A stretch of 21,569 nucleotides of DNA from positions 1 through 21,569 of the IMG/VR virus record IMGVR_UViG_3300027759_000487. One strand, written 5' to 3'. The stretch comes from a virus. A program made the translations under genes and the position numbers. Under the pieces are notes generated by a model, which was not told the origin of the DNA, made no database searches, and was given only the letters and a program-made list of their open reading frames with translations. Numbering within the stretch: the first letter of the stretch is position 1; each line of letters starts with the position of its first letter. Positions 4,983 through 20,198 of this stretch are shown piece after piece.

Positions 4983-5034
4983 CGCTCTTTGACAATTTAG
5001 GAAGAACAACAACAACAACGAAAGTTGTTTCTTC
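4983..5034 (+). promoter_or_regulatory. nut-like antitermination element: boxA plus boxB-like hairpin
   Basis: CGCTCTTTGACAATTTA at 4983-4999 differs at two positions from the boxA of E. coli rRNA operons (TGCTCTTTAACAATTTA) and also resembles lambda boxA. Just downstream, AACAAC (5014-5019), a GAAA loop and GTTGTT (5024-5029) form a hairpin with a GNRA loop; GAAGAA (5001-5006) can also pair with TTCTTC (5029-5034), giving a longer competing stem. BoxA followed by a small hairpin is the layout of nut sites that load NusB/NusE and other Nus factors. Placed at the head of a long untranslated and tRNA-rich transcript, it suggests antitermination. Function is inferred. Confidence 0.6.
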
Positions 5035-5036
5035 AC

Positions 5037-5171
5037 AGACACTACACGGGGTACCGCCTATGGACGCATAGGCTAATGAGCGATTGGGCCATCATACCGC
5101 TCTAAGACAACCTGACCAATGGCTAAGGAACGGAAGCACCGGACTCCGAAATTCGGTTCAATGTAGTGTCT
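5037..5171 (+). ncRNA. Structured non-tRNA RNA closed by a 9-bp stem
   Basis: AGACACTAC (5037-5045) pairs perfectly with GTAGTGTCT (5163-5171), enclosing 117 bases. Inside are a 7-bp hairpin GCCTATG-GACG-CATAGGC (5056-5073), a 5-bp stem GAGCG/CGCTC (5078-5082 with 5098-5102), a short stem near CGGAAGCACCG (5131-5141), and two competing long-range pairings (ATTGG 5083-5087 with CCAAT 5116-5120; GCCAT 5088-5092 with ATGGC 5119-5123). No open reading frame or tRNA fold fits. T4 encodes two stable RNAs of unknown role (species C and D) in its tRNA cluster, so this may be an analogue. I cannot match it to a known family; a tRNA-Asn gene follows 16 bases later. Confidence 0.6.
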
Positions 5172-5187
5172 TTGTAGAAACAATTAT

Positions 5188-5265: not shown

Positions 5266-5334
5266 TTGCGCTTAGTGTAATGGTAGCACAAGTGGTTTTC
5301 ATCACAAAAGAGCGGTTCGATTCCGCAGCGCAAA
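5266..5334 (+). tRNA. tRNA-Glu-like (TTC), degenerate anticodon arm, no CCA
   Basis: Acceptor TTGCGCT/AGCGCAA, D arm GTGT-AATGGTA-GCAC and T arm GCGG-TTCGATT-CCGC are all present, and TTTTCA reads as a TTC anticodon loop. The anticodon stem is defective: GTGG faces only TCAC, as if one C was lost, giving a 6-base loop or a G-U closing pair. It is the only one of the 22 without an encoded CCA. It may be a decaying tRNA-Glu or a tRNA-like RNA. Confidence 0.6.
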
Positions 5335-5426: not shown

Positions 5427-5641
5427 GTTACCGGTTCCAGTCGTCCGGTCTACTACTGGCAAGTTATCGTCCGCATGATTAAGTTGCATCGCTAGATAGC
5501 CCAAGGGTAAGATGTAGATAAAACTGGCAAGGTGTGCGCTAACCGTAAGGTGATGCGTATTGGTGTTGGTCGACACTCCAAATAGTCGACAAGTCCTGTT
5601 GATATCATGGTCGACCATGGTTAAGATGGGCACCAAATTTT
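5427..5641 (+). ncRNA. Structured 215-base spacer within the tRNA array, possible second non-tRNA RNA
   Basis: No start-to-stop gene and no tRNA T arm can be fitted here, although every other gap in the array is much shorter. Pairings include ACCGG/CCGGT just after tRNA-Tyr, GCATCGC/GTGATGC enclosing about 60 bases in the middle, GTCGAC repeated on both sides of a 10-base loop near 5569-5590, and the 14-bp palindrome CATGGTCGACCATG near 5608-5621; GTCGAC thus occurs three times within about 55 bases. The segment ends in GGGCACCA, like several tRNA 3' ends here, which may mark a tRNA remnant. Either a stable RNA or a decayed tRNA region. Confidence 0.4.
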
Positions 5642-5717
5642 GGGGAATTAGCTCAGTTGGGAGAGCGATTGCTTTGCAAGCAATAGGTCGTCGGTTCGAT
5701 CCCGTCATTCTCCACCA
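5642..5717 (+). tRNA. tRNA-Ala (TGC)
   Basis: Acceptor GGGGAAT/ATTCTCC, D stem GCTC/GAGC, anticodon arm ATTGC-TTTGCAA-GCAAT, T arm with one mismatch around TTCGATC, discriminator A and encoded CCA. Confidence 0.95.
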
Positions 5718-5719
5718 AT

Positions 5720-5727
5720 AATAAATA
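5720..5727 (+). promoter_or_regulatory. T4-type late promoter motif (AATAAATA)
   Basis: The octamer lies six bases before the AAGGAG ribosome-binding site of the capsid-targeted protein gene at 5746. NATAAATA is the late promoter of T4-like phages, read by the gp55 sigma factor. A late promoter fits a head-packaged product. Confidence 0.6.
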
Positions 5728-5745
5728 TCTAAAAGGAGTATCCAA

Positions 5746-6093
5746 ATGAAAAGCTTTTTAGATTTCATTAATGAAAGCACTGGTCCTAAAGAATTGCATC
5801 AGATTGGATTGAATAAATCTCAGTTAAAAACTCTTTATCGTCACCAATCATTCAATACATATGTAAACTCACACGAGCATCCAAAAGTTTATGCAAAATT
5901 AGATGACTATGATGGCGGATCAGGAAGAACACGAAATGTGATAGTAACTAACTCTGGTAATAAGCACAAGATGCATGTTGCTATTACTAATCGTGGTAAG
6001 ATCCTAGGGCATACAATATACCGTAAATCTGATAATCCCCCTAAGGATGCAAAGGTGCAGTGGGATCATGTTAAAACAGTAGATGGCGCATAG
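5746..6093 (+). CDS. Putative internal (injected) head protein with T4-style capsid-targeting sequence
   Basis: The first ten residues, MKSFLDFINE, match the pattern of the T4 capsid-targeting sequence of internal proteins IPI-IPIII (MKTYQEFIAE), which is removed by the gp21 prohead protease after the Glu; cleavage here would fall between E10 and S11 in an I-x-E site. The remaining 105 residues are basic, rich in K/R/H, with beta-like segments (NVIVTNS, MHVAITNRGKILGHTIYRK). T4 internal proteins enter the host with the DNA; IPI blocks a restriction enzyme. AAGGAG at 5733-5738 sets the start and a late promoter motif lies upstream. The stop codon TAG is positions 8-10 of the following tRNA-Ile. 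Function after injection is unknown. Confidence 0.7.
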   Translation: MKSFLDFINESTGPKELHQIGLNKSQLKTLYRHQSFNTYVNSHEHPKVYAKLDDYDGGSGRTRNVIVTNSGNKHKMHVAITNRGKILGHTIYRKSDNPPKDAKVQWDHVKTVDGA

Positions 6094-6158
6094 CTCAGAG
6101 GTAGAGCACTGTCCTGATAAGACAGGGGTGGAAGGATCGTTACCTTCTGTGCCAACCA
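6084..6158 (+). tRNA. tRNA-Ile (GAT), overlaps upstream CDS
   Basis: Acceptor TGGCGCA/TGTGCCA, D arm GCTC-AGAGGTA-GAGC, anticodon arm CTGTC-CTGATAA-GACAG, T stem GAAGG/CCTTC, discriminator A and CCA. The T loop is ATCGTTA, with A54 and T58 swapped relative to the usual T54/A58. The first ten bases overlap the preceding reading frame, supplying its stop codon. Confidence 0.93.
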
Positions 6159-6163
6159 AAATT

Positions 6164-6251
6164 GGAAGTGTGGCCGAGAGGCTTAAGGCGCCAGTCTTGA
6201 AAACTGGAGAACCGCAAGGTTCCGTGAGTTCGAATCTCACCGCTTCCGCCA
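6164..6251 (+). tRNA. tRNA-Ser (TGA), class II
   Basis: Acceptor GGAAGTG/CGCTTCC, anticodon arm CCAGT-CTTGAAA-ACTGG, long variable arm GAACCGCAAGGTTC, T arm GTGAG-TTCGAAT-CTCAC, discriminator G and encoded CCA. Confidence 0.96.
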
Positions 6252-6260
6252 AAATAACGC

Positions 6261-6296
6261 TTGACATTAAACTGAAGGTCCTATACATTATGAATA
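6261..6296 (+). promoter_or_regulatory. Early promoter inside the tRNA array, possibly giving a leaderless mRNA
   Basis: TTGACATTA at 6261-6269; with a 17-base spacer the -10 is TACATT (6284-6289), or TATACA (6282-6287) with 15. The expected start site is at or next to the ATG at 6296, leaving no leader. Confidence 0.7.
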
Positions 6297-6586
6297 TGAC
6301 AAATGATGAACAAGCAGCGTTAGACGCACTGAGCAAAGCATACAAGGCCTACTATCTCGTTTCCAAAGACAGAAAGGCAACGATGGATGCAGACGAGTAT
6401 GCTTTGCTCTGTGCAAAAGGATATATAGAATACGTGAAGTCGTGCCAAGAAACATATCCTCACTGGACAATTGTTGGCACAGCAAAGAATGAAATTCGTA
6501 TCCTCAGAGGTTTGATTGAGTGTTACGAAAAACGAGATTTCAAGGTGCGACCAAAGACGTCTAACAAGACAAGATGGTCGCTCTGA
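6290..6586 (+). CDS. Unknown phage protein (98 aa)
   Basis: The first in-frame ATGs are at 6290 and 6296, both within or right after the promoter at 6261-6296; a weak GAAGG (6274-6278) could serve RNA reading through from the tRNAs. The product is soluble and helical, with a basic C-terminus (KRDFKVRPKTSNKTRWSL) that might bind nucleic acid. No known domain was recognised. The gene lies between tRNA-Ser and tRNA-Pro, and its TGA stop is directly followed by the first base of tRNA-Pro, so RNase P cleavage would leave an mRNA ending exactly at the stop. Confidence 0.72.
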   Translation: MNMTNDEQAALDALSKAYKAYYLVSKDRKATMDADEYALLCAKGYIEYVKSCQETYPHWTIVGTAKNEIRILRGLIECYEKRDFKVRPKTSNKTRWSL

Positions 6587-9544: not shown

Positions 9545-9718
9545 ATGTTAGCTGATCAAATGGTCCAAACAATAAAAAGCAAAAGGTTCAAACGAGCGTT
9601 TTGGGACTGGTTTGATACGCTGCCTAGTCCTGACAAGAAAAGGTTTTGGGAATTCCCTCATGACTTCGCTTGTCTTTACTTCTATAATAAGTTCTACTCT
9701 AAACAACAGCCCCAGTAG
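9545..9718 (+). CDS. Unknown 57-residue protein ending inside tRNA-Leu
   Basis: ATG at 9545 opens a 57-codon frame rich in aromatic and basic residues (KSKRFKRAFWDWFDTLPSP; FPHDFACLYFYNKFYSK). It follows an exact late promoter octamer by four bases and has only a distant AAGG, so it may be translated without a leader. Its stop TAG (9716-9718) is positions 8-10 of tRNA-Leu, the same arrangement as the 5746 gene with tRNA-Ile. The aromatic composition is unlike random frames, which favours a real gene. Function unknown. Confidence 0.6.
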   Translation: MLADQMVQTIKSKRFKRAFWDWFDTLPSPDKKRFWEFPHDFACLYFYNKFYSKQQPQ

Positions 9719-9785
9719 TCCAATTGGTAGAGGCATCGGTTTTAGGTACCGAGTGTTGGGAGTTCGAGTCTCTCCTGGGGCACCA
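9709..9785 (+). tRNA. tRNA-Leu (TAG) with a short variable loop
   Basis: Acceptor GCCCCAG/CTGGGGC, anticodon arm TCGGT-TTTAGGT-ACCGA (anticodon 9743-9745), T stem GGGAG/CTCTC, discriminator A as expected for Leu, and CCA. The anticodon arm is typical for tRNA-Leu, but the variable region is only about five bases (GTGTT, 9753-9757) where bacterial tRNA-Leu has a long arm. Confidence 0.85.
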
Positions 9786-9806
9786 AAAACAAAAGAAGGA
9801 AAAGAA

Positions 9807-10358
9807 ATGAAAAATGTTATCACAGCAGTTGCTTTGATTTTGGTATCGTCTGTTGCATCTGCAGCAAACCTGCCTGAAAAGAAAGTAACACCTACAGCAC
9901 CAATTCCTGCTGTTACAGCACCGGAAAGCTGGTATGTTGGCGTCAATGCTGGCGGCAATGTTCGTTCAAATCAGAATGTCCAGAATACACCAGGGACTGC
10001 CGGATTTGTTGTAGGTTATAAGGTCAATCAGCATTTTGCATATGAAGCGACCTTAGATCAGGCATTCAAAAAGAATGACACTCAAGAACAAACTCGTGGC
10101 ATGATTAATGGGATTGTATCACCTTTTGGGTCTGTCTATGGATTCACACCTTACGCTCTAGGTGGTATTGGCACTCAGACAAATGATATCCGTGATGGTC
10201 GCAATGCAGCAAAGGCTGTCTATAATGTTGGTGGTGGCGTCAAATACGCAATCTCAACAAACTGGGAAGCAGATGCTCGTTACCGCTACGTGAATACGCT
10301 GAACAATACTAACCGTGATGCAAACATCTTCACATTGGGTCTTAACTATAAGTTCTGA
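9807..10358 (+). CDS. Outer-membrane beta-barrel protein (OmpA/porin-like) with signal peptide
   Basis: GAAGGA at 9795-9800 selects the ATG at 9807; the frame upstream runs through tRNA-Leu and is not used. The 183-residue precursor starts with a signal peptide (MKNVITAVALILVSSVASAA, cut near residue 19-20), then a Pro/Thr-rich linker and alternating beta strands (WYVGVNAGGN, GFVVGYKVNQHFAYEATLD, FTPYALGGIG, YNVGGGVKYAIS, WEADARYRYVN, ANIFTLGLNYKF). The final Phe is the usual recognition signal for the BAM complex. This is the eight-stranded small-barrel pattern. A phage gene of this kind could change the surface of the infected cell and block superinfection, as inference. Adjacent late promoter. 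Confidence 0.85.
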   Translation: MKNVITAVALILVSSVASAANLPEKKVTPTAPIPAVTAPESWYVGVNAGGNVRSNQNVQNTPGTAGFVVGYKVNQHFAYEATLDQAFKKNDTQEQTRGMINGIVSPFGSVYGFTPYALGGIGTQTNDIRDGRNAAKAVYNVGGGVKYAISTNWEADARYRYVNTLNNTNRDANIFTLGLNYKF

Positions 10359-12180: not shown

Positions 12181-12270
12181 GGTGAGTTGGCTGAGAGGCC
12201 TAAAGCACTCGTTTGCTAAATGAGCGAAGCAGAAATGTTTCCGTGGGTTCGAATCCCACACTCACCGCCA
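12181..12270 (+). tRNA. tRNA-Ser (GCT), class II
   Basis: Acceptor GGTGAGT/ACTCACC, anticodon arm CTCGT-TTGCTAA-ATGAG, long variable arm, T arm GTGGG-TTCGAAT-CCCAC, discriminator G and CCA. Second serine tRNA of the array. Confidence 0.95.
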
Positions 12271-12288
12271 ACATTGGGATTTTTTAAG

Positions 12289-13092
12289 ATGCGCTTCTTT
12301 GTATTATTTCTTTTATTAATTGCTTCTCCTTATGCGCTTGGTGCAGATCAAGCAGCTCCGTTGCCTGTTGCATCATGTATGCCGCAGATGCCTTATGGTG
12401 CGCCAACAGCAAAACCTAATACCACAACCATTTGCCGTTCTGGTTATCTGTTGAACCATGATCCTGTTGCAAAGATTCCTGTGTGGGTTGCATATACTAT
12501 TCAACCAATGACTGCGATCTCATGCTTGCCTCGTGATGATGCTTTCGCACCTGATATGTCTTTGCCTAAAGGACAGCGTGCAGAACTTGTTGACTATCAA
12601 AAATCAGGATTTGACCAGGGTCACCTCGCACCTAATGCTGATATGTCATTCTCTGCAATTGGCGCAAAAGAAAGTTTTATTCTTTCTAACATGAGTCCTC
12701 AGTATCCAGGAGTCAATCGTGGTGTATGGAAACAACTAGAATCAACAGTTCGTGCTTTGACATTCCAGACAAAGCATCCATTGACTGTCTATGCAGGTAA
12801 CATCTGGCCTCCTGCAAATGCAAAAGCAATCGGTCCTAATAAAGTTGTTGTGCCTGATGCATTATGGAAAGTAGTGGTTGACAATAATACTAAAATGTCT
12901 TATGCTTACATGATACCAAATCGTGAAGGTTTGTCTACGAATATTACAGCATTTCAAGTAAATGTTGCAAGTGTTGAAAAAGCAACAGGATTAGTTATTC
13001 CTGTGCCTGATAATAAAATGTTGAAGAATGTATTGCCTGTGGTTGATCTTAATTCAGTCACTGTTGCAAAGAAATTAGCATGTAAATCATAA
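12289..13092 (+). CDS. Secreted DNA/RNA non-specific endonuclease (NUC1/Serratia type)
   Basis: The frame is open back through tRNA-Ser, but the ATG at 12289 begins a signal peptide (MRFFVLFLLLIASPYALG, cut after about residue 18-19). The 267-residue precursor has the beta-beta-alpha-metal nuclease core: DQGHLAPNAD with general base H112 (the usual motif is DRGH, so Arg is replaced by Gln at 110), and SNMSPQYPGVNRGVWKQLE, where N143 should hold the magnesium ion. Such enzymes cut both strands of DNA and RNA. Export to the periplasm suggests attack on incoming competitor DNA or clearing of DNA at lysis rather than host chromosome degradation. Four cysteines could form disulfides. Confidence 0.9.
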   Translation: MRFFVLFLLLIASPYALGADQAAPLPVASCMPQMPYGAPTAKPNTTTICRSGYLLNHDPVAKIPVWVAYTIQPMTAISCLPRDDAFAPDMSLPKGQRAELVDYQKSGFDQGHLAPNADMSFSAIGAKESFILSNMSPQYPGVNRGVWKQLESTVRALTFQTKHPLTVYAGNIWPPANAKAIGPNKVVVPDALWKVVVDNNTKMSYAYMIPNREGLSTNITAFQVNVASVEKATGLVIPVPDNKMLKNVLPVVDLNSVTVAKKLACKS

Positions 13093-13168: not shown

Positions 13169-13597
13169 ATGAAACGACTTCTAACCGTTTTATTCCTAGG
13201 ATCGTGTTTTTTTGTTTGCGAAGCGAAAGCGTTTGAGTTGTCAATTCAAGCGTTAGTAATCAAGAAAGCAATAGAACACAAAATAGATGCTACCTTTGCA
13301 AATGCTATTGTTAAGGTAGAATCAAACTACAATCCTAGGATTAGAGGTCGTCAAGGCGAATATGGCTTAGGTCAGATTAAATGCCAGACGGCAAGGGGCG
13401 TTGGTTTCAAAGAGAACTGTGATCTACTACTTGATCCAGAAACTAACCTAGAATACTCATATCGTTATTTAAAACAAGCGATTGAGCGAGCTAACGGTAA
13501 CGAGTGCTTTGCAGCAACACTCTACAATACCGGATTTAACGTCAGACCTTATAAATCTGCATATTGTAAGAAAGTGTTAGCTGCAATGATTATGTAA
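13169..13597 (+). CDS. SLT-family lytic transglycosylase with signal peptide
   Basis: AAGGAG at 13158-13163 sets the ATG at 13169. The 142-residue precursor has a signal peptide (MKRLLTVLFLGSCFFVCEAKA, cut near residue 20-21) and a compact lysozyme-like SLT domain: AIVKVESNYNP with catalytic E51-S52, GEYGLGQIKCQTA with the conserved G-L-G-Q-I, and ATLYNTG for the usual AYNxG. It would cut the glycan backbone of peptidoglycan by forming 1,6-anhydro ends, in the periplasm. As a separate exported enzyme it could act at lysis or help remodel the wall; virion transglycosylases lack such signal peptides. It is probably late-expressed (CATAAATA at 13088). Confidence 0.88.
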   Translation: MKRLLTVLFLGSCFFVCEAKAFELSIQALVIKKAIEHKIDATFANAIVKVESNYNPRIRGRQGEYGLGQIKCQTARGVGFKENCDLLLDPETNLEYSYRYLKQAIERANGNECFAATLYNTGFNVRPYKSAYCKKVLAAMIM

Positions 13598-15466: not shown

Positions 15467-16750
15467 ATGAAGAATCTTGATGATGTAAGTCCTACAATGT
15501 GTCTTGCAAAATGGGTAGAAGGGACTTTATATATTTCTTCTGGTATGACACACAGTTGTCATTTAGTTCCTAAAAATAAATCACCCATTGATCTTATCTT
15601 GAAGGACTCATCAAATTTATTTAATACACCTCATAAGAAAGAAGAACGTAAACTTATGCTTGATGGCATAAGGCAATCAGGATGTCTTTCTTGTAATAAA
15701 ATAGAATTAACAAAAAATGCTATAAGCGATAGGATGTTGAAAAACGACTATCATTTTGACCACAAAGAAAAAGTACTTGCTGTAGGATATGAAAACAATC
15801 TTTCTCCTATAGAATTAGAAATTGGATTTGATAATACATGCAATTTAAAGTGTATGTATTGTTCTCCTTTTAATAGTTCTAGTTGGACTAGTGAAACTTT
15901 ACAATACGGACCTTATGAAAATGGTCATGGTGCTATAAAAAAATATACTTCTGAAGAAGAAAAACAAATATATACAAATGCTTTTTGGGATTGGTTTCCT
16001 AGTATATATGATGATTTAGAAATTTTAAGGATAACCGGCGGAGAACCATTTTTATCAAAACAAACGATGAGGATGCTTGATTATATTATCGCACACCCAA
16101 ATCCTAAATTATCTTTTGCTATTAATAGCAATCTATCTATATCACACGATTTGCTTTCTCCTTATATTATAAAAATAAATGAAATGCTTGATAAGCAAGC
16201 AATTAAAGATTTTAAAATTTTTACAAGTATGGAATCAACAGAATCACGTGCTGAATATATAAGATATGGATTAGATTATAACTTATGGAAAAAAAATCTA
16301 ATTAATATTTTAGAAAATTATAAGAATATAGATATTGTTATCATGGCAACATATAACATCTTATCAGTAACTAGTTTTGATTCTTTATTAACTTTTGTAG
16401 AAACTTTAAAAAGTAAATACGGAAAATTTAAAATTTGTGTGGATACTGTGCAAATGAAAAGTCCTAATTTTCAATGTATAGATATTCTATATGACAGACC
16501 TGAATTGCTAGAATATATCAATAAAACTTTTCAAAAAATCAATGAAGGGGATTGCTATTCAAGATTTGAAAAGATGCGTATAGCAAGAGTGTATCAAGTC
16601 GCAAAAAAATTGCCTGCTGATAATCTTGTAGAAAAAAGAAACATGTTTGCAAAATTTGTTGATGAATATGACAGAAGAAAGAAAACAGATTTTCTTTCAA
16701 CTTTCCCAGAATTAGAATCATTTTACTATGATTGCTTTAAAACAAAATAG
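15467..16750 (+). CDS. Radical SAM protein with N-terminal twitch-like Cys domain (first of three)
   Basis: GAGGA at 15459-15463 sets the ATG at 15467; 427 residues. The N-terminal 80 residues carry cysteines C12, C31, C73 and C76 (MCLAKW, SCHLV, SGCLSCNK), the pattern of an auxiliary-cluster twitch domain placed before the radical SAM core. The core shows CNLKCMYC (C125, C129, C132 for the 4Fe-4S cluster) and RITGGEP with GGEP at 191-194 (AdoMet binding), then NSNLS and SMES strands. No C-terminal SPASM cysteines are seen. It would cleave AdoMet to a 5'-deoxyadenosyl radical and act on an unknown substrate, perhaps a peptide. The gene is AT-rich, suggesting acquisition; ThyX follows ten bases later. 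Confidence 0.87.
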   Translation: MKNLDDVSPTMCLAKWVEGTLYISSGMTHSCHLVPKNKSPIDLILKDSSNLFNTPHKKEERKLMLDGIRQSGCLSCNKIELTKNAISDRMLKNDYHFDHKEKVLAVGYENNLSPIELEIGFDNTCNLKCMYCSPFNSSSWTSETLQYGPYENGHGAIKKYTSEEEKQIYTNAFWDWFPSIYDDLEILRITGGEPFLSKQTMRMLDYIIAHPNPKLSFAINSNLSISHDLLSPYIIKINEMLDKQAIKDFKIFTSMESTESRAEYIRYGLDYNLWKKNLINILENYKNIDIVIMATYNILSVTSFDSLLTFVETLKSKYGKFKICVDTVQMKSPNFQCIDILYDRPELLEYINKTFQKINEGDCYSRFEKMRIARVYQVAKKLPADNLVEKRNMFAKFVDEYDRRKKTDFLSTFPELESFYYDCFKTK

Positions 16751-19112: not shown

Positions 19113-20198
19113 ATGAACAAACCACTTTGCTATGCACCCTTCTTAAATTTATATGCTACAGGTCACAACAGGGTTGCTCCCTGTTGTGTTGCGACAAAAA
19201 GTAATGTGCCGCCTAAGACCTATTGGGATAGCGAAGAGCTACAAGCAATTAGAACACAATTGCTTTCAAATGAATTCCCATCAATTTGCTCATACTGCAA
19301 AGCGCAATGCGGCAAAGGCTTGCCGGCAGAAAAAGACATATGGGATAAAGAATTTGCAAAGAATCCTGTAGATATCAACATTGCAACAGGAAACGATACA
19401 CACAATCCATTGTATCTTGACTATAGGCCTAGTCATGTATGTAATTTAAAATGTAGAATGTGTACTCCCTATTCAAGCACGTTGCTTGAGAAAGAAGCAA
19501 AAGACAATCCTGAATTGTTAGAATGGATGCCTTTGCCTAATAGTCATATTGATAGTTTTGATGAGTTCACAGATTATATCGATGGAATGACTTTTAAGAA
19601 AGTAAAACTGTTAGGTGGTGAACCTTCAATTGAAGAAAAAGCAATTTATTTCTTAGAAAAATTAGATAAAAAAATCCCGTTACAAATAACGACTAATGGA
19701 ACAAATCTCAACAAGAAATTCCAATCAATCCTTGCGTCTTTCAATGATTTGTCTATAAACTTTAGTGTTGATGGGACAGGCAAGACATATGAATATATTA
19801 GAACAAATGCTAATTGGAACAAGACAAGCAAATATATACAGACAGCGATAAAGAACAACATTGCTAAAGAGTTTTGTTTCAATATTGTCTTGACACCTTA
19901 CAACATCTTTGATATAATAAATCTGTTGAAATGGACACAACAATTTAAAAATGTAAGGTTGTTTATTGTAGAAAGTGATATTGCATTGACTAGTTTGTCT
20001 GCAGTGCATCCTGAAGATATTGATGAACTATTAATGTTGCTATACAAAAATCCTAACTATGAATTAATTGATATACTAGAAAATGTAACTTTTGATGATG
20101 AGATTCATAAGAACTTTGTAAGATATAATAACACACTCGACAGAATACGAAAAACAAAATTAACTGATTTGGATCCTCGCTTTGAAAAATACATCTGA
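19113..20198 (+). CDS. Radical SAM protein with N-terminal twitch-like Cys domain (second of three)
   Basis: ATG at 19113; no Shine-Dalgarno is visible. The 361-residue protein opens with a Cys-rich domain (CYAPF at 6-10, VAPCC at 21-25, CSYCKAQC at 59-66) that looks like the auxiliary-cluster segment usually found C-terminal in SPASM/twitch enzymes. The core has CNLKCRMC (C110, C114, C117) and LLGGEP (GGEP at 168-171), then TTNGT and SVDGTGKTYEYIR typical of radical SAM maturases. No C-terminal Cys cluster is present. Substrate unknown; peptide or protein modification is the family tendency. It overlaps the next radical SAM gene by 17 bases. Confidence 0.87.
   Translation: MNKPLCYAPFLNLYATGHNRVAPCCVATKSNVPPKTYWDSEELQAIRTQLLSNEFPSICSYCKAQCGKGLPAEKDIWDKEFAKNPVDINIATGNDTHNPLYLDYRPSHVCNLKCRMCTPYSSTLLEKEAKDNPELLEWMPLPNSHIDSFDEFTDYIDGMTFKKVKLLGGEPSIEEKAIYFLEKLDKKIPLQITTNGTNLNKKFQSILASFNDLSINFSVDGTGKTYEYIRTNANWNKTSKYIQTAIKNNIAKEFCFNIVLTPYNIFDIINLLKWTQQFKNVRLFIVESDIALTSLSAVHPEDIDELLMLLYKNPNYELIDILENVTFDDEIHKNFVRYNNTLDRIRKTKLTDLDPRFEKYI

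Follow-up and report, generated by a model that had tools for sequence, protein, structure and literature searches.

A T4-type head-targeting tag on a putative injected protein family of uncultured T4-like phages

We analysed a 21,569-nucleotide (21.6-kb) stretch of DNA, here called the window, which is a fragment of an uncultured virus, and found in its tRNA array a gene for a small basic protein that begins with a ten-residue tag of the type carried by T4 internal head proteins. Based on its sequence, the window protein is very probably packaged into the phage head by the T4 internal-protein route, and the analogy with T4 makes its injection into the next host probable. An anti-defence role, drawn from the same analogy, is a tentative suggestion. 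The broader proposal is that an uncultured T4-like branch loads unrelated proteins by one portable tag, and that the window protein represents a new family of injected effectors with a conserved host target; we consider the chances of this proposal to be even. The packaging route is already known from T4. What is new is the cargo family (unseen among the isolated phages searched), the finding of this family in the uncultured branch, the three places that its gene occupies, and a connection of the tag with a cyanophage enzyme detected in virions. Proteins injected with the phage DNA act before phage gene expression, and those of T4 disarm host restriction. If the proposal is true, the effectors that T4-like phages inject could be read from sequence alone via the tag, which allows such effectors to be listed in uncultured phages and was highly specific in T4, in RB69 and in a check against a cyanophage virion proteome.

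The gene content of the window is of T4 type (UvsX, gp41 helicase, ThyX), and 22 tRNA genes were found in its array by ARAGORN. Head genes are absent from this 21.6-kb fragment. The gene and the features next to it are listed below, with a slash at the predicted cleavage site.

5642 to 5717, plus strand: tRNA-Ala(TGC), the upstream neighbour in the array (ARAGORN, Rfam)
5720 to 5727, plus strand: predicted T4-type late promoter octamer AATAAATA, identical across the five tRNA-array copies
5733 to 5738, plus strand: ribosome-binding site AAGGAG, read from the sequence and invariant in five homologues
5746 to 6093, plus strand: open reading frame of 115 aa (MKSFLDFINESTGPKELHQ...), beginning MKSFLDFINE/STG
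5746 to 5775, plus strand: tag MKSFLDFINE, residues 1 to 10, with a predicted prohead-protease site after E10
5776 to 6093, plus strand: basic mature cargo of 105 aa with a predicted alpha/beta fold, and stop codon
6084 to 6158, plus strand: tRNA-Ile(GAT), the downstream neighbour (ARAGORN, Rfam)

The open reading frame is a real gene, since it follows an AAGGAG ribosome-binding site, has no in-frame start further upstream and has 16 aligned family members, across which a dN/dS of 0.19 supports coding. By region, dN/dS was about 0.05 in the tag, the lowest of the protein, and about 0.15 in the cargo. The end of the reading frame, including its stop codon (6084-6093), coincides with the first 10 bases of tRNA-Ile, and the same arrangement was observed in two relatives (L002 and L009). 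Because of this overlap, RNA processing would cut the message at these bases.

The original prediction had described MKSFLDFINE as a T4-type capsid-targeting sequence resembling MKTYQEFIAE of the T4 internal proteins. We found that the two are identical at M1, K2, F7, I8 and E10 (five positions) and similar at S/T3, F/Y4 and D/E6 (three positions). This comparison is correct for IPII and IPIII and does not apply to IPI, the member that the original prediction named, which starts MKTFKEFTST. In T4 IPIII, packaging depends on residues 4 and 7, and cleavage by gp21 on residues 8 and 10 (PMC9026906). The window tag agrees with the T4 tag at these functional residues, with aromatic residues at 4 and 7, I/L at 8 and E at 10. 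In a profile comparison with IPI, IPII and IPIII, the aligned columns were only the first 9, 17 and 12, respectively.

The 16 homologues, all from IMG/VR, were retrieved through patterns in the cargo part and not through the tag. The tag is nevertheless present in every complete homologue (15/15), the 16th being truncated by a contig end. Positions 1, 2, 4, 7, 8 and 10 are conserved, with a single V for I at position 8, and the residue after the predicted cut varies (S, N, D, E), where T4 IPII and IPIII have A. The proposal of an internal head protein with such a targeting sequence withstood all the sequence-level tests.

A late promoter octamer had also been predicted to precede the gene. It was found at 5720-5727 and is conserved; it matches the T4 consensus TATAAATA at all but one base. 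The 21-nt block that holds the octamer and the ribosome-binding site (5718-5738) is identical in the five tRNA-array copies, of which L008 and L010 are near-identical in this region, and the sequence further upstream has diverged. The motif is common to capsid genes: in G013, a 104-kb relative, a NATAAATA octamer lies 5' of gp18, gp19, gp22, gp23 and the homologue of the window gene, and the opposite strand of G013 has none of these octamers. The plus strand of the window carries 10 octamers compared to 5.5 expected, and the minus strand 0. As this excess is moderate, the late-promoter claim leans mainly on conservation.

Three settings were found for the gene. The first is the tRNA array (the window, L002, L008, L009 and L010), which has a parallel in T4, where ipI adjoins the tRNA cluster. 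The second is a late operon before the primase and ribonucleotide reductase genes, among other tagged genes (L004, L050, L052 and L054); where a spanin was identified, an Rz-like spanin gene adjoins the homologue. T4 again offers a parallel, with the tagged gene 61.1 directly upstream of primase and tagged genes placed likewise in L004, L050 and L052. In the third setting, the G013 homologue is located directly between gp23 (major capsid protein) and gp19, with gp20 (portal), gp21 (prohead protease) and gp22 (scaffold) upstream. The G013 protease matched phrog_207 (E 1e-71), its scaffold matched phrog_237, and its gp23 has a TLTE/AG site. The cargo has kept the tag at all three positions.

Several other features were observed in the window. 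Just upstream of the tRNA array, 5028-5182 is a strongly structured RNA (z -4.4 compared to shuffles) that matches nothing in Rfam. The pairing is retained in the L002 counterpart, where 7 of the 41 predicted pairs have changed on both sides in a compensatory manner. The structure is a candidate phage RNA to be compared with T4 rnaC/rnaD at the T4 tRNA cluster. At 5266-5334 there is a tRNA, also found in L002, whose anticodon ARAGORN could not read ('tt') and which Rfam accepts as a tRNA. Between tRNA-Tyr and tRNA-Ala, about 215 bases (5427-5641) have no gene call and a folding z of -1.2, little above shuffles; the corresponding stretch of L002 holds tRNA-Lys. The array also contains a predicted exported DNA/RNA non-specific endonuclease (12220-13092, PF01223) and a transglycosylase-like protein (13169-13597). 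An outer-membrane beta-barrel protein with a probable signal sequence, unusual for a phage, is encoded at 9612-10358 (PF13505), and similar-looking genes are found in L049, L052 and L054. Two radical-SAM-type proteins (15467-16750 and 19113-20198), the first matching weakly, flank the region of ThyX (thymidylate synthase).

Other tag-like starts, for which the original prediction had suggested searching the genome of the window, are present in related phages. We used a degenerate DNA pattern for MK-x-[FY]-x-x-[FY]-[LIVMF]-x-E, which gave 24 matches in 13 homologue-bearing contigs and 0 with the reversed control; 12 belong to the window-protein family and 12 to other genes. When the N-termini of the genes in the window and in six contigs were compared with the pattern, 16 matched (11 outside the window-protein family), compared to a mean of 0.004 and a maximum of 1 in 2000 shuffles of the N-termini. 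The tagged proteins unrelated to the window protein include a cytidyltransferase with the motif FGRFNPPTxGH (phrog_3041), a DUF6267 protein and small proteins, and a DUF6321 protein starts with a near match (MISFKEFISE).

One gene upstream of the window-gene homologue in L004, we found a tagged 277-aa probable ADP-ribosyltransferase (5607-6440, MKTFINFISE/AKK). Its match to PF03496 (E 1.7e-4) scored 21.4 bits, below the cut-off of 23.4, and it has the ENE motif and LYSG at a place where ADP-ribosyltransferases usually carry arginine. The replacement of the arginine suggests that this protein may be divergent or inactive. No relatives of it were found in the viral contigs or isolated phages searched.

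As an external check, we scanned 14 complete genomes of named phages with the pattern. We obtained 14 matches, 13 of them exactly at annotated gene starts, and 0 with the reversed control; the match in HTVC008M lies inside a gene on the opposite strand and was rejected as chance. In the whole of T4, the pattern picks exactly IPII, IPIII and gp61.1. Gene 61.1 (L084 1967-2131) carries the full tag MKTFKEFIKE and is annotated in the record only as hypothetical; judging by this tag, gp61.1 may belong with the internal proteins of T4 as a fourth member. Two of the four matches in RB69 are annotated internal head proteins. The pattern is absent from the genomes of DLP6 (the closest cultured relative searched), phiM12, X1, S-PM2, RB49 and T7. 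The lack of a match in the first five indicates that not every T4-like phage has the tag.

The cytidyltransferase T4-GC190 was matched in P-SSM2, P-SSM4 and S-SM1, and in S-SM1 it is the sole match in the whole genome (MKKFSAFLNE/AERS). Mass spectrometry has previously identified T4-GC190 in virions of S-SM1 (PMC3037559). A cytidylyltransferase is also among the virion contents of S-CREM2 (PMC10665884). The tag would explain why tagged cyanophage cytidyltransferases are present in virions. Tagged cyanophage cytidyltransferases were located at L086 1144-2418 (P-SSM2), L087 1236-2384 (Syn9) and L102 457-1620 (S-SM1). A link between the tag and the virion-detected enzyme was not found in the literature searched, whose coverage was incomplete.

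These data bear on the simplest alternative, that the N-terminus resembles the T4 tag by chance and that the window protein is an ordinary cytoplasmic phage protein in a tRNA array, where small reading frames without assigned function are common in phages. This is extremely improbable given the shuffling and reversed-pattern controls, the retention of the tag in all three settings of the gene, and how precisely the pattern performs in T4, RB69 and S-SM1. The occurrence of the tag on unrelated proteins and on virion proteins, together with the position of the gene directly behind gp23 in G013, supports the reading of the window protein as an internal head protein, as originally predicted.

The predicted mature protein (residues 11-115) is small and basic, as had been expected, with 105 residues, 17 K+R compared to 9 D+E, and a pI of 9.84; the T4 internal proteins are likewise basic (pI 8.9-9.5 as precursors). 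AlphaFold2 predicted a confident small alpha/beta domain for the mature part (pLDDT 82.8, pTM 0.75), in the order two helices, four strands and a C-terminal helix, and in the full-length model the tag protrudes from this domain with low confidence.

Searches with the window protein gave nothing above noise in Pfam, PHROGs, NCBIfam or PADLOC, and no significant match by sequence in the PDB. BFVD contains a single close match, the uncharacterised A0A6J7X2W7 from an uncultured Caudovirales phage, which is 80% identical over 103 columns. In isolated phages, the only tblastn match was one piece of 43 residues at 40% (E 6), and the G013 copy matched nothing there. A single 24-residue match in bacterial genomes, on the strand opposite a gene, was judged to be chance. 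Foldseek found no PDB match at E <= 0.001 with the full or the mature model. The top VIA-align hit, 4k61 (DUF2874 family; Z 6.1-6.2, rmsd 3.6, 77-78 residues), is below the level meaningful for that tool. A RelE-type toxin, suggested by the helix-strand order, reached a Z of only about 3 and was dropped. Since no fold match was above noise, we claim no function from the fold. With the mature part on its own, the alignment to IPIII covered one column, and because the cargo resembles none of the known internal proteins, any function is extrapolated.

A second alternative is that the role of the tag ends with docking at the prohead core, so that the cargo serves head assembly, the core or DNA packing and has no task in the next host. 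An assembly or core function has been proposed as part of what IPIII does, and T4 IPIII mutants assemble heads more slowly (PMC9026906), the cargo is basic and strongly conserved, and one copy is located between capsid and tail-tube genes. However, the location of the gene varies and none of the isolated phages searched carries it, as expected for an accessory rather than an assembly gene, and other tagged cargoes are enzymes. We consider this alternative unlikely.

We favour packaging followed by injection, which may proceed in five steps. The gene would be transcribed late from the octamer at 5720, as suggested by the conserved motif common to capsid genes. The tag MKSFLDFINE would then pull the protein into the prohead core, a step consistent with the residues tested in T4 and with the recurrence of the tag on virion proteins. 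A gp21-type protease would cut after I-N-E, giving an 11.8-kDa basic mature protein from S11; this step is proposed because gp21, gp22 and a gp23 that has an L-T-E/A site are present in a relative. These three steps build on sequence signals that are conserved and whose T4 counterparts were tested. By analogy with T4 IPI-III and Alt, the mature protein would exit with the DNA through the tail and act at once in the new host. Finally, and weakly supported, it would most likely bind a conserved host target, disarming a defence or redirecting the host.

An anti-defence role is plausible because T4 IPI, IPII and IPIII each block a different GmrSD enzyme (PMC12373910), although the cargo shows no likeness to known inhibitors. 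A third alternative is that the cargo inhibits a type IV (GmrSD-like) restriction enzyme as the T4 trio does, and its size and charge are similar to theirs. However, it shares no sequence likeness with IPI-III beyond the tag, and ten ip genes assayed against further GmrSD systems gave no new inhibition (PMC12373910). We regard inhibition of such an enzyme as decidedly unlikely. For the main reading, the low dN/dS of the cargo is contrary to expectation for a fast arms-race inhibitor. The strong purifying selection suggests that the putative effector has a conserved host target rather than a fast-changing one.

Among known systems, the T4 internal proteins IPI, IPII and IPIII resemble the window protein in the tag at the functional positions, similar size and basic charge, and in a late promoter that is predicted for the window gene. 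They differ in that their cargo sequences are unrelated. T4 gp61.1 is likewise a tagged small protein, but it has 54 aa and a different cargo, and is not the same gene. T4-GC190 shares the N-terminal tag, but it is much larger, of nucleotidyltransferase type and not homologous to the window cargo; tagged homologues of it occur in relatives of the window. The probable tagged counterpart of T4 Alt, an injected ADP-ribosyltransferase, is the neighbouring gene in L004 and not the window protein. A review has already put forward the idea that tags of this kind enable T4-like phages to load a variety of proteins (PMC9026906).
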